Assembly (NCBI RefSeq): GCF_963678975.1
Contig: NC_089274.1
Span: 19,361,633 to 19,425,632, forward strand
DNA length: 64,000 bases
Reading direction: 5' to 3'
Source: Dysidea avara
Taxonomy: Eukaryota; Porifera; Demospongiae; Dictyoceratida; Dysideidae
A program made the translations under genes and the position numbers. How positions within the stretch are numbered: position 1 is the stretch's first letter; every line of letters starts with the position of its first letter. Positions 2,725-63,207 of this stretch are shown here, piece by piece. The notes beneath the pieces are model-generated. The model made no database searches. It was not told the origin of the DNA and worked only from the letters and a program-made list of their open reading frames with translations.

Positions 2725-3444
2725 GAAAATAATTGAAGTGCTACAATTAGGTAGACCTGTAAAAACAACAAAGCTAGACTCTGCTAGTTACTGTCACAGA
2801 CCTAGAAGAGAAGCTACTAATCCTAAGAGATGCTTACAATCTTGATCACAAAGAGTTCAGCAACATTTTTATCTGACCTGATAGAACAAGACAAGAGGGA
2901 GAAATGTTTAGAATGCACAGAGATGAATTTAAAAGAAGGAAGTCAAATGGAGAAGTAAATCTGGTGATAAGAAATGATAAACTCATATTAAAAAGTAAGC
3001 CTCTCAAAAACAACCCTGGTATTGTCCACACACCTGCAACTTCAATTCAAACTCAAGCCATGGATCAGACACCACTCACCTACAACTACATTACCCTCTA
3101 AATTAACATTGATTTCTGTAAACTTACAAAAACAAGAATCTATTGCTTTGTACCAATCTGATTTCATTACCAGTTGTGAAACATGACTATCCCAATCAAT
3201 TTTTGACAGTGAAGTACTCCCTGAAAATTATAGAGTTTATAGGAAAGATAGAAGTGATGGCTATGGAGGTATCTGAATTGGTATCAATAGACAGCATCAT
3301 TCCGAACTTATTATCACTGATTCACTGACAAACATTGTGAAATATTTGCTGTTAAAGTGAAAACATCTTCAAACCCTATAGTGACGTAATGATACTTATA
3401 AGTGTACACAGACCCCCTAATAGAGATGTATCTGATTACCACTT

Positions 3445-23600: not shown

Positions 23601-26600
23601 GTGAACACATTGGGACCAAGAATTTTTGGCCCAATAAAAATGGTTTCCTCTTATAGGTAAAGAAGTATAGAGCCAAATTTCCGTAATCTTTGTTTTTATC
23701 ATGCACGTGGAGGTTCTTTCTTATGTGTCCCTTAATTCAGAGAGTTTGTTTCAATAGAGAACACAGTCCATTAGTGCACAATACAGTACACAGAGGAGGT
23801 TGGTTACATGCCATAACCCCACGATGTACTGCATTGGAACTGGACAACAGCACAAGATGGATAGATACTGATGTTGGAAACTTTTCATCACATTCATCAT
23901 GGATAATATAGTATGTACTTGCATTTTAGTTAAGAATGTTGTGAGGATTCTGGGACACTCGTGGGTTTACCGATTCATTTTTTAGTATTGATACTGAGGT
24001 ATTGGCACTGTCGGAGAACTGTTCTTTTAAGATCACAATATGTTTGATCCATCTCTTCTGATTACACAGCAAACAATACAGATACACTAGACACAAACGA
24101 CACATAGATGGACGACACATACACAAAGAACACACACACACAGACACACACGCACACCTTGGTCCTTGCACACTTCAGAAATGAAGTCAGTTGTCTCATC
24201 TGGCATTTCATTCATCAGTGTCTTCCCATAAGTGACCATCAAGTCAGGAATCTGTCGAGACAAATTGTACAACCACATAAGGGTATATACTACACCACAG
24301 GCATGCTACTACTAATCTGGTTTAACAAACTGAAAGAGATTTCCTTAAATGGTTGCAACTACAGCAGCCTTAGATCATTATAATGTGAATGGGACTAAGG
24401 CAGTATAACTAGGCTATTCATAATGGTGAAGCTATGTGTGTTGTGTACAGGCGTATATTAAGAGCGGGATTGTTTTTGTTGAAAACATGGTATCCACAGA
24501 GGGACATTTTTGGGACCAAGTACTTTTGTAGCACCGTTTCCTCCTCAGGATTTCTTAGAGGTTTTTTCTTTTCTTTTGAGTTCTCTATCTTCACTGCATG
24601 TTTGGGACTTACTACTCGACAAAGCTTATTTGAATAGTGGTGGCTGCTATTCACTGTACCATACAATACAGGAAATGGTGTAAAAGGATATTAAAAACAT
24701 TTGGTAAGGTTTAAGGTTTAAACATTGTTCACTTATCACAGTTAGTTAAATATTTCTGCTATCTGCTACACAAATAATTTCTCAAGGTGTAAGATACAAG
24801 AAGTAGATACCAACATTAAGTCTTCAAATTGTTGGAATTGTTGAAAGAGCATCTATCCAAACAATGTGAATAATCTAATCATCAGGTTGTTGAGAAATAT
24901 GAACTTAATATATAACTTTGACAAAAGGAATGAATGTAAAAATGCTATCATTCATGACTTAAAAGTGTGGATTTCCCAAAATTTAAAAAAATAAAAAATT
25001 CACAGTTCACATATAGCCCTGATGTATTTCCACAAATTTTATTTTTGTTTATTTTTTCCTTGTTTGAGCTACTATTTTACTACTTCCCTATTACCAGCAT
25101 AATTCCCTACTACACTTGTTAAACTTCACATGTAACACTAACAATTGTCATTGTTTCAACCAGTGGAGGGCCTCACCCATCACAAGTATGGACAAGTGGT
25201 ACACTATACACTAATGGAGTAAACTACTTAAAAGGCTGACATGTTAAGTGACTTAAATTGTGTTAGTTCATAGCCTATTGTAGTGGAAGAGCTTCCTTAT
25301 TTCCTTAGTAGTGAAAGACATAAGTGGACCTTCCTTTATACTGAAAGGATATGTTTACAGGAAGCATTACAATATCCTTTAGCATACAAAGAAGTGTTAA
25401 TATAGTGTATCCTATAGGGAGAGCTGTTAGAACTACTATTATATAAGGGGATTTGCCAAAAGAATCTACTATGTTATAAAGCTGCTGTCAGTCTATCCAT
25501 GTTCACCATCCCCCTGGCATTTACAAACTCATTTTATAAAATGTAGGTTAACCATGTTAACTGGAGTTAATGGAGGAAGGCGCCAGCGGCAGCTGCACAT
25601 AATCTCCAAAATTAGAATTAATCACGCATGCGAACTACTCGTAGCGTAGCACGTTGTCTGTTGTTTGCTGCCTGTTGTAAACTAGACAATTGAATCGAAG
25701 GATATGACGTCCCCTGAACCTCCGGAACAGATTTTTTCCCTGGCTCAGCAAGAATGGATTCGACAGCTGATTGAAACGCATCAGCCACCACTGCCGCCTC
25801 CACCTCCTCCTGCTGTTAGTGTTTCATTGAGCCAGGAACAGCCTGCTACAACATCCGTCGCATCGACCAGCCCATCCATCACCACAAATAATCCCGGCAA
25901 CCTTAGTAAGTTGTTTTCGCCAAGAAACTGCATGCACGTGACCTTCACCCCAGCCTCCCAACCGTTTCTTCCGGCCCTCTCCCCACCCCTCCTTAACATA
26001 TAATGTAACACTTAGTTCGTCCGTAGCAAAGGGAGGATGGCCACGTGCATGCGGTGCATATTCATGATTGGCCGCGGGTCACACCCCTTACCTTGCTAAT
26101 TAGAGCTCACTAGTCTAGGGAGCCTCCCCTCAACAGCATAGGCTGACCCACAAGTTCTTGGTGGCTCGAACTATAGGTAGTAGAAAGGTGTTCAGAGTAT
26201 GCCCAGGTGGCCCAGGCTACTCAAACTCACTTTGCATGTTCAAGAATTTTACCAGCAGTATACTCACTACCAAAGCTCTAAGAAACCCAGGGCCACAAAG
26301 TTCTCCACATGCTGTAAAATAAATAAATAAATGAAATAGAAAGTCACCATGGTAGCACAGGGGGGACCAAATCATTGTTGATGCAAACTCATTGCTATTA
26401 GGACTAAGTGTCCACAGTTCATCATTGGTGGAGTGGTGGTACAACTTAGGTGATCATATCAAAGTTCATCACTGGTGATACAAAGGGTACCCAAGGTCGT
26501 CACTGGAGGCACGAGGGGTGCCATGGTCACCGCTGATAGTACAAAGGGTGCCCAAAGAATCATCCTTGGTGGCATGAAGGGTGCCAAAGGTCATTGCTGG

Positions 26601-29600
26601 TGGCACGAAGGGTGCTCAAAAGTCATTGCTAATAGCACAAAGGGTGCCCAAAGTAATCGCTGGCAGCATGAGGGATGCTCAAGGTCATTGCTTGCGGCAC
26701 AGGTGTGCCCAAGGTCATCGCTGGTGGCACAAGGGGTGCCCAAGGTCACCTCTGGCGGCATGAGGGATGCCTAAGTTTATTGCTGGCAGCTCAAGAGGAT
26801 GTCCCAAGATCATCGCTGGTGACACAAAGGGTGCCCAAGGTCATTGCTAGTGGCACGAAGGGTGCTCAAAAAGTCATCGCTGGTAGCACAAAAGGTACAT
26901 AAGGCCATCGCTGGCAACATGAGGGGTGCCCGAGATCATCGCTGGCGGCACGAGGGGTACCCAAGACCATCTCTGGTGGCACGAGGGGTGCCCAAGTTCA
27001 TTGCTGGCTGTTCAAGGCTGTACCCAAGTTCATTGCTGGTGGCACAGAGGGTGCCCAAGGTCATCGCTAGTGGCAGACAGTATGCCTGAGGTCATCGCCA
27101 GGGGGTATGCGGAGCATGCCAAGGTCATTGCTGGTGGCATGATGAGTGACCAAGATCATCAGGGGGGTGCGGAGTGTACCCAAGAACATTGCTGGTGGCG
27201 CATAATGCCATCTATTGTGGCATGAAACTTAGAGTCTATTACCTGGGGGTGAGAGACACCCCCACCCTCCATTACCATAATAGGCCCAAACCTACTGTTG
27301 GATACCCAGTACAGTACATGCAAATATATTGTAAATAGCACAAGCTGGCTTAAGCTCAGTGGTTATGGTTACTACCTGTTGTGGCTTGTTACTACATGGT
27401 CATTATTATATGCTGATGTCAGGGTTCAACCTCCGTATACTGAGAGTTTTCTTTACTTGTTCCACAGACTGGAGATTGCCCATCCCACCCACCTCTCTCA
27501 ATCTGCTCCCTACATTTGGAAGGACAGAAACAACACCGTCCAGCTCAGCTACCAGCCAGCTCTCCACCACCAATTATGCTATGCTGTGCCCTCCGGCCTT
27601 TCAGTCTCTCTCCCCTACCCTCAAGCGATACCTCCTAAGCTGGTCGAGAAGATCCTGGCCCTGTACATTGACATGTCAGAATTACTGTCAGAGCATTATG
27701 ACGATCATGATGAGACTGAGTCAACCTGCTGCAGTCACACCACTAAGAGCATTCGGCGGCCCCCAGTCTCTAATATCATCGTCTGGCTGGACTGTTATGC
27801 CTCTCTGGTTTCAGTATTGTGTTCAGCACATCCAGATAAATTCAGCCAGTTTATGATGTACCAAAAAACTATCATCCTTGCCCACCGGAGATTTGCAGGT
27901 GATGGGTGGGTAATCTATGACAGCTCCTATCGTCGGCAGGCAGCAAATATCAAGTTTCTAGACTGGGGAAAAATGGATGGGCGACTCTGGAATGAGATAT
28001 TTACTGGTAGAGCAAAAGGCCATTGCTCGTTGCAGAATCTGCCTCCATTCTCATACCGACTGCCCTCAAGCACCTGATGCCCACCTGCCTCCAGCCCAAA
28101 TCCCTGGGTCGTTGGGAGACTGGACAGACTCCGGGCGAGATTTGTCACCTGTTCAATTACCGCAGGGGAAACAGGTGTACGTTCCAGCCATGCAAGTTTG
28201 CTCACGTTTGTTCTGGATGTTGGGGCAGACATCCATTCTCTCATTGCCCATCCTCAAAGAGAGATCACCCTTATCCCTTGAAAGGAGTTCGTCGTCGACA
28301 GTGATTAAAGCACATAGCAGGACAACAGAATGATTTAGAACTGTATTCAATTGTACATGTTGAGTACCCCTGCAGATTGATAAAATTAATGTTATTCATA
28401 TGTTCAAAGTAAAAATAATAAAAAAATTTAATACAGGTTGTGAATACTCTCCATTAGTTCCCCCTCCCACCCCTGTATCTACCTCTACCATGTCCAGCTC
28501 TGTCCACTGAGGACATGACCACCCACCTCACTGAAGTGCGGCTTAAGAGTGCATGCCAGGGCAGCCCTATAGCTGATTTTTGGTTGTTTGCGGGGACCCC
28601 TTAGTCACTAAACGGTATGCTAGTTACAACCCTCCCCTTCCCACCATATAGGGAAGGATGGGGTATACATCTACATCAATGACCTACTGAGACTGGACAC
28701 CACTGCCAAATCAGAATCAACCGTTTCTATTGACCCCCGTCTTACACGTGTCACCACACCATTACATATGGATACCTGGAAACAGCGTCTCTGCCGTCAT
28801 CCAGACCACAACTTTACCAATTACATCATTCGGGGTATTCAGTATGGTTTTCGCATAGGAGTTAAGCCTCCAGTGTCCCTCATGTCCGCTAACAAAAACA
28901 TGTCATCAGCCCAACAGCACCCAGCAGTCATCGACAGCTACCTGAAAAAAGAGGTTGATCTGTTGAACATCTTTGGTCCTTTTCCCTCATTATCCGCCCC
29001 AATGGTTCATATCAACAGGTTCGGGGTTGTTCCAAAGAAACATCAACCTGGGAAATGGCGCCTCATAACTGACCTGTCATTCCCAGAAGAAGAAGGTGCA
29101 GCATTCAACCAAGTAAATACGGTACTTATGGAATAATTAGGGGGATTTTTGTTAAAGCTGTACTGGTAAGACCAAAATACTCTACAAGAATAATCACCAA
29201 AATGATTGACATAATCTAATAGAGCAGTCACAATTCTTTCAGTAATACAGTGGAACCTCTTTTAACAAACTCCCTGAAATAAGAACAAAATAGAAAAAAC
29301 CTCCATAATAAGGACAAAAGTTTTGGTCTCAAATCTGGTTACTACATTTTTTACCTCTGAAAGAGAAAACCTCTATATTACAGCAAAAAGTGGCTGGGTC
29401 CCAAAAAAATGTCTGCAATAGACACTGCAAATATATTAACCCTTAAACCTGCATGGGCCAGAAAACTGGCTCAAATATGCATGCCTTACATGAATGCTGT
29501 AACTTTTGATGCATCCATGCAATTCACATCATTCTACTTGTGATGTAACAAGGATTAAAATGATACCAAGGGTTTTTTCCTAATGCTAAACAGTGAGGCC

Positions 29601-47200: not shown

Positions 47201-48298
47201 TTTTTTCACCACATTTGTCACCATTGCAAGCTACTATATGTACTTCCTACGTGTACACATGAATGGACGATTATTGGATATCTACAATCGATTGAAGAGT
47301 CCTTCTGAGAAGATCTTCATGCCTCACGATATGGAGGTATCTAACGAGGAGTTGGGGTACATCTGTCACAAAGCAGAGCAATGGAGAGGTGAAGAAGGGG
47401 AGAGAAGAAAGGTCGCTGTTTATGACTACATCTGGGAAGAAGAAGAGGTATGTGATGTCGCAGAATAACTTACAGAAAATGGCTGAACAAATACTTTGGA
47501 AAATGAGGGGTAGGAAATGAGCCGAAATTGTTTACGAACATTCAAAGACAGAAAGATGTCTTCCCATATTTCAGACATATTGTTTATTGTAGTAATACAA
47601 AAGATGGGCTGGTGGTTGTGCTTGTGCTGTAGTAATATTGCTCTTCAGCTGATTGTTGACTAGCAAAATACACAATATTATTGTATATGACTCCAGCACA
47701 TGTTTTGACATTAGCAGTTTTAAACTACTCAGCAACTTTCCTATTGTATATAGTACACTATACACACAATACTTAAGGGACATTAATGTTTTGAATATTA
47801 TATTAATTGTTGTTGTTGTGTATAGTTGGAGCTGGGGAGTTTACATAAGAACAAAGAGATTACTACACACATCTCAATACACACACTACACTTGGATGGA
47901 CTGAGAGAATTGTATAGACATTTCTTACGATTGGATAATGGGGCCATAATTGAGGTAAGGTTTTATGAGTCCAGATAGCACATACACTGTGTACATTTCA
48001 GATATTTGGTGAATTTGGAGGTGCAGAATTTGTTAGCTCAGGAGTAAAGAACGCCATTGTCAGTCGTCAAGACAATGTTAAGACTCCCTCTATTGGCACA
48101 CCCTCCCGACCTGTCACCGCCATGAAACTCAACCGAAGGAAAACATCTTTTCCTGAAAAATCACCTGACCAACTATCACAACATTCGGACACCTTATTGG
48201 TACCTACCCCAAATAGGAGAAGATTTGAGGAGACCACCAAAGGAGGCTCCATGAACAGGACACTACACAAACGAGTCTCAGCTGGACAATTGGTATAA
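38250..48298 (+). CDS. large C2-like/multi-pass membrane protein, OFCC1/Ojoplano-like
   Basis: Fifteen exons: 38250-38778, 39321-39556, 39710-39871, 39933-40043, 40317-40458, 40695-40837, 40971-41140, 41507-41638, 42284-42482, 42704-42877, 43271-43407, 44958-45176, 46832-47447, 47826-47954, 48002-48298. All phases join, giving 1131 residues. The N-terminus is acidic and disordered (FFSDDDDMSEDD). A coiled coil follows (QEQEAKLQMERQLELRRQEE), then a C2-like beta region (KIKLKCLRGIRDKLP, VVGWGTFPISDAEFN, FLKGSIDVLID), acidic and basic linkers, and at least four membrane segments (WGTLLILLLVWWV, VVTIGPLFNTVLFCLLIVAS, LDPYWIFLVDMILL, GIFLLLFIYFFTTFVTIASY). A conserved tail follows (QWRGEEGERRK, YDYIWEEEE). 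From memory the C2-like and tail parts resemble OFCC1/Ojoplano, a membrane protein of epithelial morphogenesis. That name is tentative; the gene model is firm. Confidence 0.8.
40137..40223 (-). tRNA. TRNAU: selenocysteine tRNA, anticodon TCA
   Basis: An 87-nt gene on the minus strand. Acceptor stem GCTTGAA pairs with TTCAAGC, with discriminator G. The D arm is CTTCA/TGGAG. The anticodon arm is CAGGCTTCAGACCTG with TCA in the loop. The long variable arm is GTGTTTAGCGACAC and the T arm GTGGTTCGATTCCAC. Length and almost every loop base match animal tRNA-Sec, and the acceptor stem differs from vertebrates by paired changes. The upstream TTTATAA (40249-40255, 26-32 nt before position 1) fits the TATA element of tRNA-Sec promoters. 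A nine-T Pol III terminator follows (40127-40135). It lies antisense in intron 4 of the OFCC1-like gene. It delivers selenocysteine to UGA codons. Confidence 0.96.
40249..40255 (-). promoter_or_regulatory. TATA element upstream of the selenocysteine tRNA
   Basis: TTTATAA on the minus strand, 26-32 nt upstream of the first tRNA base, the place expected for the external Pol III promoter of tRNA-Sec genes. Confidence 0.6.
42111..42184. repeat. 16-bp tandem repeat
   Basis: Four full units of GACCTTATTACACAGT plus a partial fifth, in intron 8 of the OFCC1-like gene, about 100 bp before the exon 9 acceptor. Confidence 0.95.
44017..44656. mobile_element. TA-flanked MITE, TGTGACCCAG termini
   Basis: Left end TGTGACCCAGTCTGAGAAAG and right end the complement of TGTGACCCAGTCTGGAAAAA, both continuing into CCGG.TTTAT. 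TA flanks each side. It is 640 bp long, with no transposase frame. It lies in intron 11 of the OFCC1-like gene. Confidence 0.8.
45537..46281. mobile_element. Mutator-like MITE with 9-bp target duplication (second family)
   Basis: Almost entirely palindromic: arms of about 310 bp (45537-45850 and 45955-46281) start GGGTGTGA.TATTCAG and surround about 100 bp. The flanks atgcaaact (45528-45536) and atgcagact (46282-46290) form a 9-bp duplication with one mismatch. No coding capacity. It lies in intron 12 of the OFCC1-like gene. The sequence is unrelated to the 29760-30547 element, but the layout is the same. Confidence 0.8.
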
Positions 48299-48562
48299 TA
48301 TGGGCAACCTGATCACTTCTAAATCATTCTATTTTTGTATTTAATTATAATAATTTATGTATATATTGTATCTAATGCACTGTTGCTTTGCAGTATAACG
48401 GCACATGTGACTTGTATAGGGAAAAACCCTATGTGGATGTTGCGGAAGTTATAAAAAATATGCGGAAGTTGCGGAATTATAAATTTACATATGTTTAGAG
48501 TTTATTAGATTTCTGCTGATTTCTCTCTAGTGGCAATGAAATTGTACTGCTATTAACACGTG
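48299..48562 (+). promoter_or_regulatory. intergenic region and promoter of CARD-Rab gene A
   Basis: 264 bp between the OFCC1-like stop and the gene A start on the same strand. It contains a short direct repeat (atgcggaagtt, near 48435-48475). CACGTG (48557-48562) immediately precedes the ATG of gene A, matching boxes in the promoter shared by genes B and C. Confidence 0.5.
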
Positions 48563-51486
48563 ATGACTGAGATTGGTGTTTCGGTGAACGACAAGGAAGC
48601 GAGAAGGTTTCTAGCCAGACAACACAGGAACCTACTAGATGTACTGAACCTTGATGAACTAAAGATACAGTTGTATACGGATGAAGTGTTGGATGACAAC
48701 ATTCAGGAAAAACTGATGAACGTGGCACTGGAGAGAAGAGCAAAATTACAAGAGTTGTTGCAATATCTTAGCCGTCAAGGCGAGCCGGGGTTGCTGGCCC
48801 TTATCTATGCGTTAAGAAAATGTACCAGCGACTCTACTCAAGTCCAGTTGGCAGCTACGTTAGAACAGAAATATCAAAAATTTCACGAAGACCCACCTGG
48901 GTCCAGTTGTTCAACAACTTCAATGCCTAGTAGTAATTCTACTGATGGCACAGCCAGACAACATCAAGCCTCAGAACAGTTCCCCATACATGTGGTAAGA
49001 TTTGATGTTGGCGAATGAATGATAAGAGGGTTCCTGATAAGAGCATACATCCACATTGCATAGAATGATGCAGGCAATTATATAGGGTCAAGCAGCATTT
49101 AAGATTGTTGCCTGTATGCATACAACCTATATATGCAAGTTTACAACATTAATAGCTTTGCAATAGTGTCGTACATTCAAACAGTTGTTTTTCGGTTTGC
49201 ACTGTGTACTGTTTATTGTTTGATCTCGTGCACCTTTGTTGTTGTAATTCATCCTCACAATGGAGCTCGATATCATTTTAGAACATGCTATTTATCTGGA
49301 GTTAGTTGGGAAATTCCACTTTGCATATAATATAGAAAGGTGGGGTGGTTTAACATTGAAATTTGCCACCTCATACAGTTTAGCTAATTGTATGCTGAAT
49401 CTTTGTGTGTGCATACATTGTTCCGTAGTGTATGTGTGAACGTGTGTGTGCATGCACACGCTTGTGTAGTGTGTGTGCTTGTGTATGTGTAGTATGGGGT
49501 GTTGTGTGTGGTGTGTTAGGTAGCATAGCCAAATGGTTAAAACATTGACCTAGTTATCACAAGATTACAGATCCGATCATCTTCCTGCTAATACCCAGTT
49601 TCTGTTGAGCAAGAAACTTCACTCACATTAGTCCTGTATTAACTTCCCAGATGCTATGCTAGCTAGCTTGGTCATAGTCAGTTCCAGTTACTGTATAGAC
49701 AGTTAATTTTGGTCGAGTGCTGGTCTTTTGACTACAGAGGTGAACTGCTTTCATAGCATTCACCCCTCCTTGGACACAACCGCTACATGCCCATCACGTA
49801 GCCGTATTGGAATGTACATAGAGTTCCATGATGTGTAGTGTTTGTAGTGTGTGTTTGTATACAGTGACTGCAAATAATGCACATTTAATTACATGTGATT
49901 TAATGATGTGCCAAGTACATTATAAAATCAGACTAGAAGTGTGGATATCTGTGGAAAACTTATCATAATGTTGTAGCATCTTCCTAACTTTCTTGCCAAT
50001 AACATTGTGCTGTGTGTACGGACACAACATCTTGGCCATTCATTTTCAGTAAATACAAAGTAGGCATTATAGGGCATATACTGTGTAATTCACACATGTT
50101 TTATGGTATACAGGGAGTAGTAGAAATACCTGCTTCCAGAAGGCCTCCCAGGAAGCAGGTTGTTCATGTCAAGATCATCGTCATTGGACCTGCGGGTTGT
50201 GGGAAGACCTCCTTCATGCTACGCTACACTAAAGATGATTTTGACATCTTCAAACATCCATCTGTATCCTCTTGTGTATCATTATAGAGAATTTGCGTGT
50301 TGTTGTCTTTACTTTGGGGGAAATTTTAATAAATGTGCTGCTAGTAAGTTGTTGGCACTTGGCAGTAGCTGATCCGTGATACTGTTTAATTGGTAAGCTT
50401 TGTTTATTGGTCAAAGTTTCCAAGCTTTCCTGTTAATGCCTGACAGAACTGTTATAAGGGAGAATACCATTTAGCTCAAATGAAAGTAATATGTGTTCAT
50501 GTAAAGGAAGCTAGCTATATGGAAATTGGTCTTATTCACTGAATCCTTAATTATTACACATGTACACTACCCTGCCACTACACAGTAATAATTGTTTGTA
50601 GTTATTTCTCCTTGACCTGGAGCTGTCAGCCTGTTATTGAGTTCAGCAGCAGAAGCTACACACATGAAGGAACTGAGTACATGTTAGAATTTCACGATAC
50701 CCCTGGTGAGGAGGACTTGGGTGTATTGTTTACACTGGTAGGAAAACCTGAAGCTCTACAGTAGTTGAACAAAGGATAGCACACCACCGTAAACAATTTA
50801 AAACATGTAGAGATTTAGTATTTTAGTGTAACTTTAAACGTGCTACCAAATTTAAGAAAATCAAATGTAGCCCACCTTGTCTGTTCTTATGCCACCATTA
50901 TTGCCTACTCTCCATTCCAGGACGTAACAAATGTGATTCGATAGTTGCGGTAAGTCGTCCAATGTGATCATCTCACTGACATACTACAATACAGCAATAC
51001 TGGCGTAATACAAATGGAGCACTGGTCATCTATGATGTGACTGATACAAGATCTTTAGAAAGTGCTCTAGAATGGAAGCGACATTTGGATAGGAACATTG
51101 TCTTAAAGAATGGTGATTGTATACCCGCAATCCTTATAGGAAACAAGGTGAGTATACTCATAACAGTGTGCTCCTTATTATGATTTAATGTTAATAGTGT
51201 GATAATTTACCTAATACTAAAACACCATTACCCGATGGTGCATCATTTTGTAATGAACATGGATTTAGTGCATTTTTTCAAGTTTCAGTAAAGTCTTCAT
51301 ACAATGTAGATAAATCAGTCGAGTTCCTCATTAGTAAGGTAAGCTATGATGTGATGTATACAGGGCAAAACTATACCTTATTTCTTTTAACAGATAGCTG
51401 AGTTAGGTCCACAAGACACTTATTATATACCCCATGTTGAACATGTGGCTCGACCTCGTAATGAACCCAATAATAAATGCTGTTAG
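48563..51486 (+). CDS. CARD-Rab fusion GTPase A
   Basis: 357 residues, seven exons: 48563-48994, 50114-50263, 50630-50705, 50921-50949, 50995-51147, 51198-51338, 51394-51486. Phases join throughout. Residues about 12-105 form a CARD-like helical domain (ARRFLARQHRNLLDVLN, RRAKLQELLQYLSRQG, LIYALRKC). A Ser/Thr-rich linker (SSCSTTSMPSSNSTDG) follows. The Rab32/38-like GTPase begins near residue 160: P-loop GPAGCGKTS; G3 DTPGR, with the usual catalytic Gln replaced by Arg; GALVIYDVTD; G4 NKCD; G5 SVK. The tail ends NNKCC, a dual-cysteine geranylgeranylation motif. This implies a membrane-bound, possibly GTP-locked adaptor (inference). The exon 3 acceptor (CAG at 50627-50629) was chosen because it restores phase and matches gene B. 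Intron 1 holds a SINE. Confidence 0.85.
49505..49855 (+). mobile_element. tRNA-derived SINE in intron 1 of CARD-Rab A
   Basis: Starts with a box-A-like TAGCATAGCCAAATGGTTAA and a box-B-like agatccgatc 30-40 bp later. A SINE-body motif (GTTGAGCAAGAAACTTCACT) follows, recalling the 'TTGAGCAAG.CACTT' segment of many animal tRNA-SINEs. It ends near 'catgatgtgtagtg'. A GT-rich stretch precedes it. The boundaries are approximate. Confidence 0.6.
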
Positions 51487-51670
51487 TCTGTTGTCATTAA
51501 TATGTCACAAGTATGTTGTCCTCTCTACCGATGATTCCACGATTTTATGTTTTTTATACATGCACATTTCAGTAAATTATTTTTAAATTGAAATGTTTTT
51601 GTATATTATTGTTGTGTATGTCTGTTTGTACATCTTTATGATGAAAAATTGATGAACTTGTAATATTTAC

Positions 51671-51676
51671 AATAAA
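51671..51676 (+). terminator. polyadenylation signal of CARD-Rab A
   Basis: AATAAA 185 bp after the stop of gene A, inside the 329-bp space between the convergent genes A and B. Confidence 0.6.
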
Positions 51677-51815
51677 TTAATTTTTACAAAAGATAAAAAT
51701 TGTTCTGATCATGAAAAATATATCCCACATAATTTGAGTGTGGATCCGTCTCTCTTGAACACCTTTCCAAGATTTCACTATACATTCATCACAGATAGGG
51801 TAAACCTCTTTGAGT

Positions 51816-53231
51816 TCAACAACATTTGTTTCTTGTACGAGGGTTGTTCCCGTGACCATGTAGACTGATACACTCTGTGCTTGAGTCACCGATTGTAATG
51901 GTGACAGGCTTGGTGTCATTATAATGACTATCTTGTAGTGAACTAGTGTCATGTAGTATCTGTGAGTAATATGACAAATTTAATTCATAACACTACAAAG
52001 TACATGAGGTATCACATACACTGTATACCCTGTACAATATTATGTAATTTTTTTCATCCATAATATGGTATTAGGGTACATTTGTTCAAACTTTCCACAC
52101 ATTAAAATTTTAGCAAAATGGGGACAAACACAGGAAATTGCTAAGTATGAGTTTGAAGATAATAAAAATTGTCCCATAAAAGAATTCTGTATGGCTGAAC
52201 AATGGTTTACAAGACAGAATGTTGTCAAATAATTATATAATACACCACTCACTAGTTAAGGACAAGACTCACCTGTGTTAACAAGTAATCCACGGACTGT
52301 TTAACATTTTCAGCAGTTTTAGCAGAAGTGAGATAATGGTTGAGGAAATCACACTCTCTACACATCGATGATCCATCCAACCTTTCCAAATCACACTACA
52401 TAATATATCACATTATCTGATACGTGTAAACCTTTAGACTTGAATCAAGAGTATATAATGGGAAGGGTAGTAACCAAATACTCTCCCCTAGCTGGTGTAA
52501 TAAAATACTTCAGTGTAATTCCATCCAACAGAATGGATAAAGAGTTAACGCAATTCTTGATACAACACATACCTTAGTACCCACAAGGACAGTAGGTAAA
52601 GCATCACCATCTCTCTTGTAAACTCGTTCATCCAGTTCAGTTTTCCAGTTTATAATACTGTCCAGTGTATCTGATCTTGTGCAGTCATATACCAGCAGTG
52701 CCCCATGAGCTCCTTGGAAATACCTCTATAGCAAGACCACATAGTGAAGTGGCCATCTCATTATAGTTGTCATGTCAAGTAGGTCCCAAACATAGTTATG
52801 GTACTTCATGATCCCATCAACAAGACCCCTCAATATAGTGACGATGTCAAAACATAGTTTATTGGTCCCATGGGCCATCCAAAGAACTGAGATATTAGTG
52901 AGATCACAACACACAATAAATACTACTATAACCACAAGGACAACAGATGTTATAAAATCCCAAACCACATCACATGATTTTGTGTGGTGAATTCTAGTTG
53001 AATAGGTGGGTATTACCGAGGAAGTTGCTGTGGCATTCCTTACCCTGGTGAGTGTATTGGGTCTGGATTGTCCTAAATATACCAACAAAATAATATACCA
53101 TATTTGGTGATTAACACTTACTGCTTACCAGCTGGGTCCCAGAAATTGATGACAAAATCCTTACCCCTGAAATTGATGACACTTGAGACCACGTCCATTA
53201 CAATCTAAATAAAAGCTACATAATACATACT

Positions 53232-53312
<81 letters not shown>

Positions 53313-54234
53313 TGCATATGAACACTGGTATATAAATGATATGATTAATTTAGCTAGATAATTAGTGAACATTGTAATTTAGTGTAATTTATTAAATATT
53401 TTTGTAATTTGGTAATTATGTGACATATAGCAGCTTACTGTAGGCTTGTTATGGATGTCAAAATCATTTACAGCATACTTCAATATCAGACTAGTTTTAC
53501 CAACACCCTTATTACCTAGTACCAGTATTTTGATTGCTCGGCAGTTCTTTTTGACTATAATGGCTGGCTCTGTAGAGCACATCCTACAGCAACATAAGAG
53601 CAAATTGCATGGTGACAACGTCATGGGATCAATACAACAAGCTAGGATAACTGAAATAAAAAAACATGATCATTTTAAATTTTCTAGCGTAAAACTTGTG
53701 TGATTATATCAAGGTGTTGATAACTCACTGCTCATTGCTAGCTGATATGAAGCCACTTGTTTCTCGACTGTTTGAAGGGGAGTGGTTTATACTGAGACAA
53801 CTTGAACGCTCTGAATGAAAATGTCTTAAAGAACTTTCTTCACTTCTGTTATAATCAGATAAACTACGCTCATCAGTTACTTCTACTTCCATGTAACACT
53901 GCTCTAGAATTTCCGCAAGATTTGCTTGTCCCTGGTCTTCTACTCCGCATTGCCTCAGTGCCACCACTAGCTGTCTGTACCCCTCGTCGCCTTTACTTAT
54001 CAAATAAGTCAATAAGGTTTCGCTCCTTTCGTTCTCTGTCTTGTTAGATTCAGTCAGTTTACTAAAGAACTCCGCGTCGATTGCTCTGTTCTCATACAAG
54101 ACTCGTCTTGTTGTGGTGACGTTGATTTTAGCTACCAGAGACGTGAAGTTCGTTTGTAAGGTTTTTCTGGCTGCATCATCTCTGCCCTTCGCTATTCTGC
54201 TTCTCTCCAGACTCGATGGTACCTCAGATGACAT
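51816..54234 (-). CDS. CARD-Rab fusion GTPase B
   Basis: 391 residues, seven exons (5' to 3'): 54234-53729, 53583-53439, 53204-53129, 53072-53044, 52725-52573, 52395-52273, 51959-51816. The CARD-like domain (about residues 20-115) has ARKTLQTNFTSLVAKIN, ERSETLLTYLISKGDEGYRQ and VALRQCGVED and is the clearest of the three. The linker is Ser-rich with SRETSGFIS. GTPase motifs: P-loop GNKGVGKTS; G3 DPAGQ, keeping the catalytic Gln; GALLVYDCTR; G4 TKCD; G5 TSAK. It ends TRNKCC. Only 145 bp separate the CARD exon from the GTPase exon and the junction is phase 2 on both sides, the best evidence that the fusion is real. A Met early in exon 2 could also start a GTPase-only product. Confidence 0.88.
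53232..53307. repeat. (CA)n microsatellite
   Basis: About 37 uninterrupted CA units in intron 2 of CARD-Rab B, 25 bp upstream (minus sense) of the exon 3 acceptor; likely length-polymorphic. Confidence 0.97.
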
Positions 54235-54450
54235 TGTCGGCAAACCATGCAGTGCACGTATTATCTACTCATCACGTGTTCTGCAAAATAGTATGTGTGG
54301 CTACGCCTCCTTGAAACAAGAAACAATATCACGTGATTCTTCAGGGAAGGGTATATATTAAACTCTTCAAAGCGAGACTCCAAAGTAAGATTTAGAAAAT
54401 TTACTGTATTAATAATTGATGCATTTATTGTGTACCTGTTGCTACAGGAC
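54235..54450. promoter_or_regulatory. divergent promoter of CARD-Rab B and C
   Basis: 216 bp lie between the opposing start codons. It contains two CACGTG boxes, in atcacgtgtt (54271-54280) and the palindrome ATCACGTGAT (54328-54337). A TATA-like tatatatt (54352-54359) is oriented for gene C. A possible 5'-UTR intron of C runs from gtaaga at 54385 to the acceptor cag at 54447. bHLH factors of the MITF/TFE/USF type bind CACGTG; actual use is inference. Confidence 0.6.
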
Positions 54451-57400
54451 ATGTCCAGCTATGGCGACGACGACGACACGAAAACGTCAGAGGTACTTGG
54501 TAATGGATTGCTCAGTATTGTGTTGAGTGGCGAGTCCGGGCCTGCTTTAGACCTTGACGATTATGCGGACAACGTTTTAACCTCCTTTCATGATCTGTTG
54601 ATAGAAATAATTGACTTAAAGCTAGTCACGCAGTATTTGAATGAAATAAAAGCTATTTCAGCTGAAGCCTACTCTATATTAACAGACAAATCTAGTCCTC
54701 TTCCTAGTAGAAAGGAATATTTGATAACTCATGTGAAAGCCATGGGAATTGAAGGATTTAACTTGCTTGTGGAGGCACTCAAGAGTTCTGCAGATGCCCC
54801 TGAGCAAGTTGAATTAGGAGAGAAACTACGTACTGCCATACTGGAGGACATTTCTTCAAGTAGTGATACGTCACGGGAAACATCTCCCATTTCAACACAG
54901 GAAGGATTTGTATCAGCTCTGGGGTCACCCCTCCATGCGTCACCTCGCCATACACCACCATCCACCACCAATAATGCCAGTGCTGATGAACAAACCCCAT
55001 TATTGGCTGATACAAAACAAGTAGCTAGTGATGATCACATGGTCACTTATAGGAAAAAGAAGGTGTGTAACTGATGTGTGCACAGTATACAGATTTGCAT
55101 TTTTATTGTATGGATGCAAAACTTGTCAAGGGGGTGTCACATAAGTGGTCTCGGTACCATAATCAAAGGTGAAATTTTTGCCTCATTAGACTACTGCTTA
55201 TGTTCCTATGTCAAGGAAACATCATTTCAGTCACAGTAAAATGTCTGACTTTGAAACATCCTGTTGAAAGATCCTTACATCTTTATGGTGTCACATTTCA
55301 GTGTCAGTGGTATTACGTAGACTTGTTTTAAATAATTATAGATATGTAAACCACTTATGTGCAATGGGATCACTAATGTTTGGCAGATTATACTAGCAGA
55401 GAGTGAATTTGGCCTTTAATTTATCACTGCACTACAGTATGATAAGGTGCCGATGAATTATGAATCTGATGAATGTGTTTGAAAAGAAGCACTTCTCCCG
55501 TGTACTAAATCAGTAAAAGTGTAGTGTGTAAATTTGTTACTGTTAAGTCATAGGACAGTTGTGGGCATGCCTTTGGTTTCCCGTAACTTTTTTTTTCTTC
55601 GAAAGTTGTGCGTTTGTGTGTGTATGTTTCTAAGTTTGTCTTTCCATACACATGTGACTAAAATCTTTTATGCTACACGTAGCCTGAAATGAAAGCTATA
55701 TAGAGCCTGGCTGTATTAACCTTCTAGGCAGGTAAGCTTTGTGGTTTCTTTGTGCATGTTTTAAATATGAGTGATGTGAATTTCTGAAGACCTTGTGAAT
55801 GCTCTACAGGCATACAACGTACTTGGCTTTCTAAACTGCCCAGAATAGCAAATTCTTTTGATTTAAAAGGGGCATGTCCCACATGCATATAAGAACAGCC
55901 TTGAGGCATTGTCTAGTAAGAAAACACGATTATTAATAGACAAACCATGCAAACAGTTCAGAAGATACTTCTGTGCATAATACTGCATGTGACAAAACTT
56001 TCAACGGGGAACTTTCACGGTTGCATAGAAATATTGTAATTGGCAGGAAAACATTCACAGTTTTGTGGTTGCTTAGAAATATTGCAATTCACAAGAAAAC
56101 ATTTGCAGTTGGGCTTTAAATATTATTAGCTAAGCACCTCCTGTAATATCAAAGCACGTGGTGAGACTGATAACACATTGGAATCCATAGATCCAGAGCC
56201 ATTGATCAATTGATAATGGAAGGACTGTGCAGAGGCTCAATAGTAGTTGGCACTTACCATGACGGAACGTGTAGTTTTATGGTGGTAAAATTACACATAG
56301 GGTTACTGGAGTGAGTAGACACGAGAGATCATGAGATCGCAAATTTAAATACTACTGCAAGCTACTACTTGTGAAAATAAAATTTTTGCAATAAAAAGTA
56401 TATCATTCGGAATGGTTTCAAAACAGCTGGTATTACTAATATAGAGTATTAATCAATCATTTAATTGTACGCAACTGAAATTATATTGATTATGGTAATA
56501 CTGTTAGTTCCACTGACTTCTAACATGATGTCATTGGAAATACTGGCCTTGCACGATGCAGTCAGCAGGTGCTTCCATAACTTGCTTTGATCACAATTTA
56601 CGGTGCTCGGGTCTTCACAGCCACATTGCACATTCCCTACTTCTTTCAAATGTAAGTAAACTCTTCACCAATGACAAAAGTCCAAATGTCTTGATAAACA
56701 TGGTAACCATGTATACAAGAACCCAATGCTTCCCTCTCCTTTTCCAGTGCGTATCTATTAATCAACATAAAATATTTCATCGGATTTAAGTTTAGGAAAA
56801 CTTGTATTGTGGTTGGATACATATTCATTTATGTGAATGTTTTCCCTCTCACAAGTTTTACCATATGCAGTATGTGGTTTGTTTTAGTTACGCTTGCATA
56901 GCAAAATAATTAATGGATTGCAAAATAATGAAATACTTCATATTACAATTGTCATCGGGGTGCTAAATCATGTAGAAACCTTGTCGGCTTATAACTTAGT
57001 TAATAAGGGTGGTGTAGCTATACTGAAGTGGTGTGTCAGTAAGTAGTTTAGAAACTTTTCTCTGAGCGAAGCAAGTACAGAAAGAGTGAAAGAAAGTAGC
57101 AAACTGTGGCTGTTGGTATCAAGATCCACTCTTCAAGTTGATAGTGTCAGCACCACAACTTGTGGCACTAGTGCATTGGCCCAAATGATGTGTGCCTTGT
57201 CCAGAAAGTAAGCTAACAGTAAGGCTATTGTGTATTTGGCCAAATTTTTGTTTGATCAATGTAGTAAACCACCACGAGCTAGACCACAGGTTTCTATTGG
57301 ATTTAGTACCCTCATTAAGCCTCTAGACATCAAAGGAAATTATGCATAAATTTTCTAAACTAAATTTTATACATCGTTGATAATTTAGCATATAGTATAA

Positions 57401-60400
57401 TTTGTGCACCTGGTATTTTAGAAATAGCACAACAATCAACTTTACCAGTTAGGCACTGGAGTGAAAAATGGTATAAATGACCTGCCTTATGGATCCACCT
57501 GCTTAATAAAGGTCACCTTTCTACATGACAACACCCAAATGTGTGTCACTTGTGTACAAAGTGACCTGTCTGATTGAGTCACTGTGTAATATGGTTAGAA
57601 TATCCTGGGCAGGCAAGTTTCACTGCACTGTGCCATATCCTTTGTCATTAACAGGGGAGAACAAGCAGGTCTCACTCACAGAGACACAAGACGACCTCAT
57701 CAAATTTGACGTCATCTGGTCAGGTAATATCTTATGGGACGACAAACACTTACCTCAAGATCGTCCTCATGGGTGACGTCAAGGTGGGAAAGTCTTCATT
57801 GATACACCGTTACATTTATCATCAGTTTGATCCTAACCTGAAGCCAACTGTATCCTTTTGACTAGACTAATGTCTGTTATGTTTGTTTTCAGATTAATGA
57901 ATCATTAGTCCCCATTAATTCAAATTGCAACTTTTTCACGTTAATTTTACATAGTCAGGTGCTGGGCTGTCAAGTTGTACCATTTGGAAAAAAAATGTTA
58001 CTGGTTTTCTCGTTATTCAGACAAAAGTGTTTGGGTGACAAAGCAATGGTCACTTCATAAGGTCAGGAAATATTTTAGCCTGATTATCTATAATACATAA
58101 CATCTTGAGTACTAATCAGATACACAACCCTTAGCTCTCAGCCTCAGGCAGGTATGGACACTAACTTGCGCACATTTTCATTCAATGGTAGAGATTACAT
58201 ACTTCAGTTATGGGATATTGCTGGTGTCTTATTAGCCCAACGTGCTCTATTGCCAGTAAGTGTGTACATGTGTGTGTGTGTGTGTGTTTGTGTGTGTGTT
58301 TGTGTTTTCTATGTAATGTATGCATATACATACACACCTGTGCAGGCCCATATCTAAAGGGGTTTGGAGTCTTTGCACTTCCACACTCTGTTATACTCTA
58401 ATAAAGCAGTCAACAGTTTATAGTGTGCCATCCAGTTTGTGTGTGCACGTGTGTTACAGTGTGCACGTGTGTGTTACAGTGTACATGTGTGTTCTTTGCA
58501 CTTCCACACTCTATTATACTCTAATAAAGCAGTCAATAGTTTATAGTGTGCCATCCAGTTTGTGTGTGCACGTGTGTTACAGTGTGCATGTGTGTGTTAC
58601 AGTGTACATGTGTGTGTTACAGTGTGCACGTGTGTGTTACAGTGTGCATGTGTGTTACAGTGTGCATGTTTCATTTACAGGTATATTGTAAAGAAGCAGT
58701 GGGTGCAGTGTTTGTATATGACGTCAAAAATGAGTACTCCCTTTTCAACCTCGAGCAATGGAGAAGAGCACTCAACTCACTTGTGACACAAAAAAATGGC
58801 CACCCTATTCCATCCATAATGGTGGGAACTAAGGTTAGTCCTTTGTACAACAATAACCAATCTCTGAGTTATCTGAACCCATAGTGAATTCTTTCTATTA
58901 ATGAAACCCATTCATTTATATACAGAACTACACTTAGTTAGCTAAACTAGTCAGGTTTTTAGCTGATCTATTCACATATTTTACTTAAATGCCACACTAC
59001 GATGATGAAAATGTCCCAAGTAGCATATAGAAAAGAAGGCATGCTTTGATACGTATAATAATACTCTATTTCAGGTAATGTGAAAGGTAAGAATAAACAG
59101 TTGGATGATCAGTAGTCTTTTGTACTCTAATAGTTTGGGGTTGGGTTAAGTCAACGTATCCTCAAGTGTTAAGGATTGACTATGAATTTCATTCATCAAT
59201 TAATAGCAATCGTGACCTAAGAAATGTGGTGCTAAGATTTTCTTTCAGAGGATAAACCAACCCCAAGGAAAGATTTAATAGACACCAAGGCATCCGCCTT
59301 GATGATTATTACATCTTTCCTTTGGGTCGTTGATCTACACAAGAATCATAACACTGCATATTTTAGCTATTTTGATAATGGCCTGTGTACTAGGATTCCA
59401 CAAATTATAGCTCCGCACACATTGCATAATTATTAGCTACTATTTGTTCATTTATGGATAGAGTGATGCTGGTGAATTAGATGGATCTGCAGTGTGTAAG
59501 CAGTTGGGGATGCAAAAATGTTTCTATGTGTCTGCTAAAACTGGTGAAAATGTTGATGAGGCATTTGAATTCCTCATTAAACAAGTAAGTCTGTAAATTG
59601 TCTCTTCCCCTTCCCCCAGCCACCCACACATGAAGTGACATTAGTTAAGCATAGTCCTAAACGGAACAGTGCCATCTATCAAGACACATGGTAGTGTGTC
59701 GTGTGGCCAAGAAAACCGGCACGTCACACCATGGGTATATTGACAGGGAGAAATGCATTTTTCATGCATACATAGCTCCATGGCCCTCTCAAAAGCACAT
59801 GATTTTCGCATTATAGCTGCTGGCTACCTTCAGCACATCGCTTTCCAAATTTCAGCAAAATCACTTAATGTGTGGAATACAAACCCTCAAAGTTGGACTT
59901 AGTTTCTTTCTCTCTTTTTTGCATTTTTCTGGAGAACTAATTTTCTTCTACTTTTCGCACACATTACAAAAACCAGTATAAAACACAAATGCACAAATCA
60001 TGTACCAAGTTTGGTTTGAAAACCGATTTTTTGTCACGCTTGCAGGGACAGCTACCAGATTAATCGGTCAATGTAAAGGTTATCCACCATAGCTCAAACC
60101 CTCTTGTGTGGCCAAACCCTTTCCACGCAGCCACTTTTTGATTGGAAATTATAAGCGCCACGCCAGCTTTTGTGGTTTAAAAACCAACGTGATGTAAAAT
60201 CATCGGTAAAATACTCTAATGGAACAGTCACTGAGTAGGAAAAGGGTTGACAAAAAAAGCTCAAACCAGGGACCTCCATACCTAACTCCCAAACCCTTAA
60301 CTGGTGAACTGTCATTGTCAGCTGCTCGGCTTACTTATTTTCTACAAAAATTCTATACAACACTGAAGTTCATAATGGACATTCTTTGTGTGTTCTATTA

Positions 60401-61361
60401 GAAGACCTCAAAAATAGCACATGGTCAAATAAAATCTGCAATACATCAGTATGATGTGTAACTTCTGTCTTTGTAATCGTCATTGTGTCTGTGGATAAGA
60501 GGAAATTTGATAAAAACAAGCCCAAAACCAGGGTTTGGGGTATTTAGAATATAAAAAGAAGTGAAATCCATGCAAAAAAAGTTAAGCCGTAAAAAAGGTG
60601 TGGCCTTCAAAAGGCTGGGTGAAAAAAGTTGTGAAATCAAAGGGGCAGCCGAGTGCTAGTAATGGCTGTTATTGAAATTCATTGACATCATTAAAGCCAT
60701 TTCTTGGCTGCCATCTTGATTTACAATCTTTTCACCAAGGCTGCCCCTCAGAGGAGGTTGGTCACGCGTCATCATTCATCTCGTGATCTCGGAGGAAGGG
60801 TTGAACTAATTCAACCTTCACACCTCTTAATGTTCTAAAGGACGGATTGTATATCCATACCAGAGCGTCCCAGTGATATTACAAACCTTCTCAGTACAAC
60901 GCGCTACTTTCCTAGCTGCTAAACAAGCCATAACACATAGAACAATGCTTGGTTGCATAATTTCGCGTCATAGGATTATGACACGTGACCAACCTCCTCT
61001 GGCTGCACCCTTTCTTTACAGCTGTTTTGCATGGAATCATTATGCTGGCAAGTGGGTTCATCAACACTGTTGCTACGCTTTAACATGTCTAATTGGTCAC
61101 TTTATGAGGTGGTTTTATTAATGAGGCCATTAATTAAACTTAGCAATGCTTGGCACTTACTTGATAAGGTCACTATAAGCAGCTAGTCTTACTAAAGAGG
61201 TGGCCGTTAAGTGAGGTTTACTGTGCTGGTATTTAACATGTCATTTGCACCCACAGATTGCCAACATTGAACTTGACTCCACTAAAATCAGTCACCAGAC
61301 TAGTCAGTTTCCTGACACTGACCTAGACCGAACTTCAGGCTGTTGCTGTACTATACTGTAA
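54451..61361 (+). CDS. CARD-Rab fusion GTPase C
   Basis: 422 residues, six exons: 54451-55062, 57682-57849, 58148-58255, 58681-58833, 59462-59584, 61257-61361. The acidic start (MSSYGDDDDTKTSE) is followed by a CARD-like domain at about residues 35-130 (NVLTSFHDLLIEIIDLK, RKEYLITHVKAMGIEGFNLL). A Ser/Pro linker (SRETSPISTQEG) echoes gene B. GTPase motifs: P-loop GDVKVGKSS, with an unusual Lys before Val; G3 DIAGV, with the catalytic Gln lost and one extra residue in switch II; GAVFVYDVKN; G4 TKSD; G5 SAKTGEN. It ends SGCCCTIL, which can be read as a CAAX box (CTIL) or a Cys cluster. The intron after DxxG found in A and B is absent. The 2.6-kb intron 1 is less certain than the other junctions, but both sides are phase 0. 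Confidence 0.82.
58371..58676. repeat. 123-bp duplication plus 20-bp GT-rich minisatellite
   Basis: Within intron 3 of CARD-Rab C. 58371-58493 and 58494 onward are near-identical copies starting 'ctttgcacttccacactct', each containing the dispersed CTCTAATA motif. They are followed by several units of TGTGTGTTACAGTGTGCACG. A (GT)n run lies just upstream (about 58267-58310). Confidence 0.85.
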
Positions 61362-61545
61362 TATTTTATGGTATTTATTGTTATTTCTGTAAATACAGTA
61401 AGCATGTGCAATTGTAATTTTGCAATGTGCACCTCATTTGTTTTTAAATTATAATACTATAACAGATTGGGGATATAGCTATTATATTTACTCTTTTTCC
61501 ACAAATAGCTCACCCCTATGAATTCATTCATTCTGCAGTTTGTTA

Positions 61546-61551
61546 AATAAA
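61546..61551 (+). terminator. polyadenylation signal of CARD-Rab C
   Basis: AATAAA 185 bp after the stop of gene C. Confidence 0.6.
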
Positions 61552-63207
61552 GTTGTGACCATTTTTATCACCAAGCAACAGACCATTGTTGTACATAGCA
61601 TAACATGTCCTTCAGTTTAAACACGATCTGTATGACCATGTTCACCCCCAAAGATTTGTGTGGTTTGGGGGCAAGGGTAATTGAGAATGACCTTCAACCA
61701 TATACCATGATTATCAATATGGTGGGAAAGTAGGTACTTGCACTTTAGTGAATACACCTGCACGTACTTATTATGTGTTCGATCACTCAGTTGATTATTT
61801 GTATTGGTATAACAGTAGTTTGTAAGTAGAATTTCTTAACATGATAATTTGATAAAAGATTTTGAACTGATATCTACATCCTATTAATTGCTTACAATAG
61901 TAGTAACAATTTGTATTAAATTAATATACTGTCTTTTAAGTCATTAACGTACAGTTTGCAGTGTGTGTATTGACCATGTAACTAACTGCCACCACACAAA
62001 TCTTGGAAGTGTATTATACTGCACTGCTGTGGTCATGTCGTATATAATCCACTTGTTGGCTTTTAATCATGCACAATTCTGTACCAACTCACTCTATATT
62101 TTAGTGCCATCTAAGCCTATACAAAAGATAATGTCTTATCTTGCAATGAATTCTGGAAATCCAGGGTGTAATTTTCCTTTAATTTCTATGCTACTATACT
62201 TGATATACTTTGGACAACTAAACGTTGCACAAATCAAGGTCTGCTAACAGAATTATCAGTTTCTCCTATTGTGCACCTATGCTATAGCTACCTGGCATAA
62301 CTGAAGAACTCCATTGAAAACTGGGATCAGTAACTCTTTAAAAACCTGTACAAGATCCAGAGATTTCAAGGCATGAAAATTTTGTTGGAAAAGCTGCATG
62401 GAAATTTTGTTCTCCTGTAATTATTTTCAAAGAATTGTAATCCCCTTAAGTATCACAGGATACTACACAAACTGAAGGTGATCTCCACACCAGAAGATTT
62501 GATACAAGAATATACCTCTCTGAGTGTTGCTGCCGGCAGGAATTTCTAGCCTACAAAGATGCTGATACACTTTTAATCTCGCTTTTAATAGCAGGGAGAG
62601 CAATTTCAGGTAGTACAATGCAGTGCAATGTGTAACAACTCTGAATACAACAATAAAACAACACATTGATCCTTGCAACAATCAGAGTGAATCTATTGTT
62701 AGGCGCAATTTGTGAATTTGCACAGTTTATAAATTTTTGTGCATTTTGTGAATTACCGTAATATTGTATGAAAGCTGTGCATTTTATGAACTAGTAGATT
62801 CTGGTCAACTAAGCGTACCATTGGCAGATTCAGGGCCAAGTGCATGTCATAGCTGTCTTCCTCTTCCATAACTAATTGGAATGGAGGATTGGAGGCTCAA
62901 AGCCATCCAATACAATACACCAAACTTAGAAATGCTACTGCACAAGTATGGGCACACAACTGTATTTTGTAGCAACTTGCTATCACTTGATTGTCAATAA
63001 AGACATCCCTGGGCAAATCAGCTGATTGCCAAGTACCTAATCTTAAGATTGTCAGCATTCTCATAGCCTGTAGCTATGACTTGCACAGCTGCTACAAATT
63101 TTTTTTTTTAAATGTTGCACAAATACATAACATGTTTTGATTGAGAGCAGGCATACAGCGTATACAATTTCCAGTATATTGAGTTACAACAGCTCCATAT
63201 CTTGATA

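Follow-up and report, generated by a model that had tools for sequence, protein, structure and literature searches.

Three neighbouring genes of the sponge Dysidea avara, referred to here as A, B and C, each place a helical domain resembling a CARD ahead of a Rab-type GTPase, which poses the question of whether this locus encodes Rab proteins that carry a death fold. The genes span positions 48563-61361 of the 64,000-nucleotide stretch of contig NC_089274.1 that was analysed (the window; positions are counted from its first letter), from the start ATG of A at 48563 to the stop codon of C, which ends at 61361. Taking the gene models, the fold of the N-terminal domain and the GTPase part together, we infer that each gene makes one fusion protein.

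Gene structure and domain order

All three genes are intact and contain introns, every one of which is of the GT-AG type. Gene A (48563-51486, + strand) encodes 358 amino acids in six exons, gene B (54234-51816, - strand) 391 amino acids in seven exons and gene C (54451-61361, + strand) 408 amino acids in six exons. A and B lie tail to tail. B and C have a head-to-head arrangement in which 216 bases separate the two start codons. The modelled frame is open in each of the three, for which reason an explanation as pseudogenes was rejected.

The order of parts is the same in A, B and C and runs from the N-terminal helical domain through a Ser/Thr-rich linker and the Rab-type GTPase to a terminal Cys motif. 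Exon 1 encodes the helical domain and the linker in each gene (48563..48994 on the + strand in A, 53729..54234 on the - strand in B and 54451..55062 on the + strand in C, where the linker is also rich in Pro). The linker is 36, 51 or 68 residues long across the three genes with a Ser+Thr content of 33% in A, 33% in B and 29% in C. The GTPase is encoded by exons 2-6 of A on the + strand (50114-50263, 50630-50737, 50995-51147, 51198-51338 and 51394-51486), by exons 2-7 of B on the - strand (53583-53439, 53204-53129, 53072-53044, 52725-52573, 52395-52273 and 51959-51816) and by exons 2-6 of C on the + strand (57724-57849, 58148-58255, 58681-58833, 59462-59584 and 61257-61361).

The exons of the N-terminal domain correspond to the three longest stop-free frames of the interval 48001-62000 (245, 179 and 153 codons). 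Three frames of at least 150 codons were seen in none of 200 first-order Markov sequences with the same dinucleotide make-up, and at least one such frame in 36 of the 200. Using a codon score trained on four other open reading frames (ORFs) the modelled frame was the best of the three in 14 of 19 exons, and the five misses included the first exon of A and the second of C.

Within the GTPase part, four introns fall at shared places in the alignment of A, B and C and all are of phase 0. Three of them follow KHPS/NKPT/LKPT, the NK/TK of the guanine-binding motif and ISK/LTQ/IKQ respectively, and one precedes QYW/RYF/VYC. The model of B contains one further intron (53073-53128, 56 bases, phase 1) within switch II that is found in neither the A nor the C model. 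Because the intron structure is common to all three genes it indicates that they are paralogues of one ancestral gene, and their GTPase parts are 31-34% identical to each other. Among the introns, the second of B holds an (AC)n run at 53235-53307 and the third of C holds tandem repeats at 58370-58669, made up of a 123-base unit (2 copies, 97% matches) and a 20-base unit.

The N-terminal domain

Models of the N-terminal domain were made for A and C with AlphaFold2, the input being the exon 1 sequence of one gene with the other two paralogues as the alignment. The model of A is a six-helix bundle (CARD-like domain at residues ~8-109) with a predicted local distance difference test score (pLDDT) of 83 and a predicted template modelling score (pTM) of 0.73. 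That of C (residues ~35-137; pLDDT 81, pTM 0.71) forms a bundle of six helices as well, preceded by one further helix that is poorly predicted. When the models were compared to the PDB with Foldseek, chains from CARD entries made up 46 of the best 50 of 117 matches for A, with caspase-9 on top and a chain of a MAVS CARD filament (8wkw_A) in seventh place, and at least 46 of the best 50 of 241 matches for C. The remaining rows among the best 50 for A were two designed proteins, a Lon fragment and a Fas-FADD chain, the last being the first death-domain row at rank 42. Against the CARD of Apaf-1 (1cy5) the A model aligned with a template modelling (TM) score of 0.67 by model and 0.82 by target and a root-mean-square deviation of 1.9, and the C model with TM scores of 0.58 and 0.85 and a deviation of 1.7. 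On the best 50 rows of each search both models are thus nearer to the CARD than to the death domain, death effector domain or pyrin domain folds. A broken or kinked helix 1 is a hallmark of CARDs, and this helix is broken in the C model (35-45 and 47-53) and continuous in that of A by DSSP (8-27).

A profile built from the three N-terminal domains also led to CARD proteins, which represented 21 of its 24 matches in the PDB (E 0.0028 to 1.6) and included CARD8, CARD9, CARD11, caspase-9, ASC, ICEBERG and CED-3. The other three seem by name to be designed proteins. A control profile with shuffled columns gave two matches, both designed TIM barrels, and no CARDs. Its best E-value of 3.9e-6 (no stretch passing alone) was below the 2.8e-3 of the real profile, showing that E-values from these profiles are loose, and the argument for a CARD therefore rests on the identity of the proteins matched and not on the E-value. 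A generic helical bundle outside the death folds was considered and rejected, given 21 CARDs in 24 matches with the real profile versus none in two with the control.

A number of search results weigh against the assignment. Foldseek gave no PDB match at E <= 0.001, the best values being 8.9e-3 for A and 2.2e-2 for C. CARD was the only Pfam family for the trimmed domains of B (E 0.034) and C (E 0.067), below the cut-off in both cases, with PF00619 scores of 14.6 and 13.7 bits versus a gathering score of 23.9. A was absent from the matches of this family, and its trimmed domain instead matched SpoIVA_C (8.4e-4), bpX0 (0.029) and EAD7 (0.2), all below the Pfam cut-off. A PDB search with the single sequence of the B domain returned no CARD among its three matches. 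The same search returned two CARDs among six matches for A (ranks 2 and 3) and four out of four for C. No CARD was matched in a Pfam scan of the full-length proteins, and NCBIfam gave no family at E <= 1 for any of the three N-domain exons.

The three domains are strongly diverged from one another. Using blastp within a three-sequence database A matched B (2e-9) and B matched C (3e-10), with no match between A and C. Searching the window by tblastn joined A and B (1.7e-6 and 4.0e-6) and left the domain of C joined to neither.

Taken together the data suggest that the N-terminal domain is a divergent CARD, with the case strong for the fold in A and C and weak by single-sequence statistics. For B the assignment is a putative one and draws on the likeness of its domain to those of the other two genes and on the weak Pfam match. 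The initial annotation had placed a six-helix CARD-like domain at each N-terminus and named AlphaFold as a check. The predicted folds of A and C, six-helix bundles of the CARD-type death fold whose best PDB matches are nearly all CARD chains, bear this out.

The GTPase part and its known relatives

The GTPase parts match Pfam Ras with E-values of 2.4e-29 (A), 7.5e-34 (B) and 1.1e-29 (C), and for each the best PDB chain is Rab32 (4.8e-29, 7.6e-31 and 2.6e-26 respectively). The best 60 of 271 PDB matches of a joint GTPase profile included, in this order, Rab32 (3.4e-46), Rab38 (1.8e-41), Rab7L1 (1.1e-36) and Rab18 (9.2e-36). Roc was matched in all three, but far more weakly than Pfam Ras, and with Rab32 best in the PDB membership of the Roc/Roco group was rejected.

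Two observations count against a close tie to Rab32. For gene C the Rab32 match is only narrowly ahead of SEC4 (1.4e-24). A stretch reading FALK, located where switch I ends, is described as common to Rab32, Rab38, Rab32LO and Rab7L1 (PMC4728774). It is absent in all three GTPase parts, where the aligned place reads FSSR in A, VVSS in B and TNLR in C. The Rab32/38-like GTPase of the initial annotation therefore holds as far as the best PDB match goes and falls short at this signature, and we regard the GTPase parts as Rab32-like and divergent.

Rabs carry a set of switch motifs comprising the P-loop, the switch I Thr, DxxGQ, NKxD and SAK. B has all of these with the exception of TKCD in place of NKxD. 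In A the switch I Thr is replaced by Ser, Gln by Glu and SAK by SVK, and in C the P-loop reads GDVKVGKS, with a Lys in the P-loop, together with Val for Gln and TKSD for NKxD. At the position of the catalytic Gln the sequences are DTPGEE in A, DPAGQS in B and DIAGVL in C. A and C may not cycle normally because this residue is replaced by Glu and Val respectively, and judged from these motifs they would probably hydrolyse GTP poorly. A live nucleotide switch is predicted at most for B.

The proteins end in KCC in A (NNKCC), KCC in B (NKCC) and CCCTIL in C. These Cys ends align with the CC end of Rab32 and are read as predicted prenylation motifs, in keeping with the prenylatable C-terminus that had been proposed along with the Ser/Thr-rich linker described above.

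Rab32 and Rab38, together with Rab7L1, are therefore the nearest known systems by PDB match, and the DxxG, NKCD/TKCD/TKSD, SAK/SVK and terminal Cys regions all align with Rab32. A, B and C differ from them in having an N-terminal CARD, in lacking FALK and in keeping the catalytic Gln only in B. With respect to architecture there is a likeness to the large Rabs Rab44, Rab45/RASEF and Rab46/CRACR2A, in which a Rab is also preceded by an N-terminal signalling module. This module consists of an EF hand and a coiled coil in the large Rabs, in contrast to the death fold of A, B and C. An isoprenylation site is stated for the long form of Rab46 (PMC8303950), and Rab44 and Rab45 are placed in a different Rab supergroup, Group I (PMC3425129). 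That paper, a broad survey, speaks of just three Rabs that bear an additional domain, and the word "death" is absent from its main text (PMC3425129). A Pfam scan of A, B and C up to E 10 found no EF-hand family, and the N-domain models of A and C are compact helical bundles.

Two further systems resemble the putative proteins in part. MAVS holds its CARD at an organelle membrane through a flexible linker, an arrangement that A, B and C would share. It differs from them in having a transmembrane helix and is not known to contain a GTPase. DAPK1 has a death domain. DAP kinase carries an AP-GTPase (PMC8195603). In DAPK1 and the Roco proteins, too, a single polypeptide unites a death fold with a GTPase of the Ras-like kind. 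A, B and C differ from these in that the GTPase is of the Rab and not the Roc type, the death fold is a CARD and not a death domain, and the protein ends in a Cys motif; neither a kinase nor a COR family was among their Pfam matches. A lineage-specific expansion of unusual death-fold combinations, such as TRADD-N with other modules, has been reported in Amphimedon and other marine invertebrates, with no Rab fusion among the architectures described in the accessible text (PMC8195603).

The architecture is that of a large Rab with a death fold. Rabs with extra modules (Rab44, 45 and 46 with EF hands) are known already, as is the union of a death fold with a Ras-like GTPase (the DAPK kind). No CARD-Rab fusion was among the matches listed in searches of the open-access literature, which is compatible with the earlier statement that no such family has been described, and automatic entries with this architecture may well exist in UniProt, InterPro and animal genomes. 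No relatives were confirmed in the viral contigs and prokaryote genomes that were searched.

Possible function, transcripts and upstream regions

Assemblies of CARDs are triggered by sensors such as NLRs and RIG-I-like receptors or are fixed on mitochondria, as with MAVS. We see about an even chance that the CARD-Rab proteins act as a CARD platform similar to MAVS, held by a lipid anchor and positioned through the Rab domain. The Cys tail would be geranylgeranylated and the Rab domain would direct the protein to the membranes of endolysosomes, lysosome-related organelles or phagosomes, where the CARD on its flexible tether could nucleate or recruit CARD partners such as caspases, NLRs or adaptors. 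This would amount to a membrane-anchored CARD of the MAVS kind whose anchor could be made reversible through the action of GDP dissociation inhibitor and guanine nucleotide exchange factors. Membrane density would control assembly, as might nucleotide state in the case of B. The copies have probably specialised, and B, which keeps the catalytic Gln, may cycle, with A and C possibly more constitutive anchors. The suggestion of the initial annotation that nucleotide state could control CARD assembly is accordingly narrowed, being plausible at most for B and disfavoured in A and C by their Glu and Val. Every step beyond the domain assignments is one that we infer.

A broader version of this reading is put forward tentatively, as possible and no more. 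It would see here a new signalling class in which the Rab GTPase cycle sets the place and time of CARD filament nucleation. This would be a counterpart of MAVS that can be switched and is addressed to an organelle, with a cycling B and locked A and C, and with B and C co-expressed from a shared promoter. A Rab-borne CARD, if true, would couple death-fold assembly to organelle identity and the GTPase cycle and would add a death fold to the modules known to be fused to Rabs. It would also allow a test of whether lysosome-related organelles or phagosomes are sites on which animals directly built immune platforms.

Set against this platform is the explanation that the CARD is only a module for oligomerisation or targeting and that the proteins are trafficking regulators like the large Rabs, with no part in death or immune signalling. 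Known CARDs work mostly via CARD-CARD contacts, and by both profile and Foldseek the N-terminal domain looks to be of the CARD subfamily, which leads us to consider this explanation rather unlikely. It draws on the precedent of Rab44, 45 and 46, whose N-terminal EF-hand and coiled-coil parts belong to proteins described as trafficking regulators (PMC8303950, PMC3425129), and on the finding that no caspase or NLR domain was detected by Pfam (E <= 0.01) in 10 other ORFs of the window, nine of them from a list of 16, a scan that multi-exon genes would escape.

The alternative that CARD and GTPase exons belong to separate or alternatively spliced transcripts, leaving the fusion partial or absent, appears improbable. 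The CARD-then-Rab order on one strand is kept in 3/3 copies, the inverted B included, and the exon 1 donor is phase-compatible with exon 2 in all three genes. In gene C the reading frame of exon 2, followed upstream, meets a stop before any in-frame ATG, leaving no start upstream of the P-loop segment unless an upstream exon is used. Intron 1 of B is just 145 bases long and that of C 2,661 bases. Within the latter none of 38 stretches running from an ATG to a GT (at least 10 codons, 20 starts) reached a codon score of 0, the best having -0.09 versus +0.11 for exon 1, an argument that is weak because the background was partly trained on intron 1 and scores below 0 also occur among the accepted exons. 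Intron 1 of A and of B contains no AATAAA or ATTAAA. As evidence this is weak, since both are also missing from the 315 bases scanned past the stop of B.

Other features of the gene models weigh on the side of separate products. The exon 1-2 phases differ among the copies (0 in A, 2 in B and 0 in C) and three AATAAA lie within intron 1 of C. In-frame ATGs occur at or ahead of the GTPase exon in A (MFYGIQ) and in B, in the latter both before the GTPase exon and at the first full codon of exon 2, and GTPase-only products are therefore possible for these two genes. Read-through past the exon 1 donor of B meets a stop at once and would give a CARD-only protein, and mammalian large Rabs are described as having isoforms that lack either the Rab or the EF hand (PMC8303950). 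On the whole of this evidence the existence of at least one fused mRNA is very probable. Likewise improbable is a decoy role, in which the CARDs would act as inhibitors by capping CARD filaments, either bound to a membrane or through sequestration, in the manner of ICEBERG and other CARD-only proteins. The strong divergence of the three CARDs, their differing net charge (-1 in A, -5 in B and -9 in C) and the acidic helix 1 of C (-5) would speak for it. Against it, A has net basic helices 1 and 4 (+2, +3) and net acidic helices 2 and 3 (-1, -1), a polarity compatible with homotypic assembly by the generally known interface rule.

The interval between the start codons of B and C (54235..54450, 216 bases, no strand assigned) is a candidate shared promoter of these head-to-head genes and contains two CACGTG sites. 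In all, each of the three genes has CACGTG a short distance ahead of its start codon, the sites being at 48557-48562, 54273-54278 and 54330-54335. These represent 3 of the 17 sites of the window within 516 upstream bases (300 before A and the 216 between B and C), with a binomial P of 3e-4 for a motif that was picked post hoc, and the window is CACGTG-rich overall (17 sites versus 6.8 expected). Factors of the TFEB/MITF type bind CACGTG E-boxes, and as candidate sites the boxes would fit lysosome-related control.

Elsewhere in the window a reverse-transcriptase-like ORF at 1768-2784 (- strand; Pfam RVT_1 7e-5, below the cut-off) is probably a retroelement. One long ORF at 12212-13285 (+ strand) contains two 4HBT thioesterase stretches and resembles an acyl-CoA thioesterase. 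Together with the spliced genes and the CARD, this two-domain ORF is consistent with animal DNA. An 824-residue ORF rich in Pro, Thr and Ser at 14871-17342 (- strand), with a repeated segment and poly-proline tracts, matched no Pfam family at E <= 0.01. An array of a 31-base tandem unit (22 copies, 69% matches) lies at 26462-27160 in a locally GC-rich stretch.

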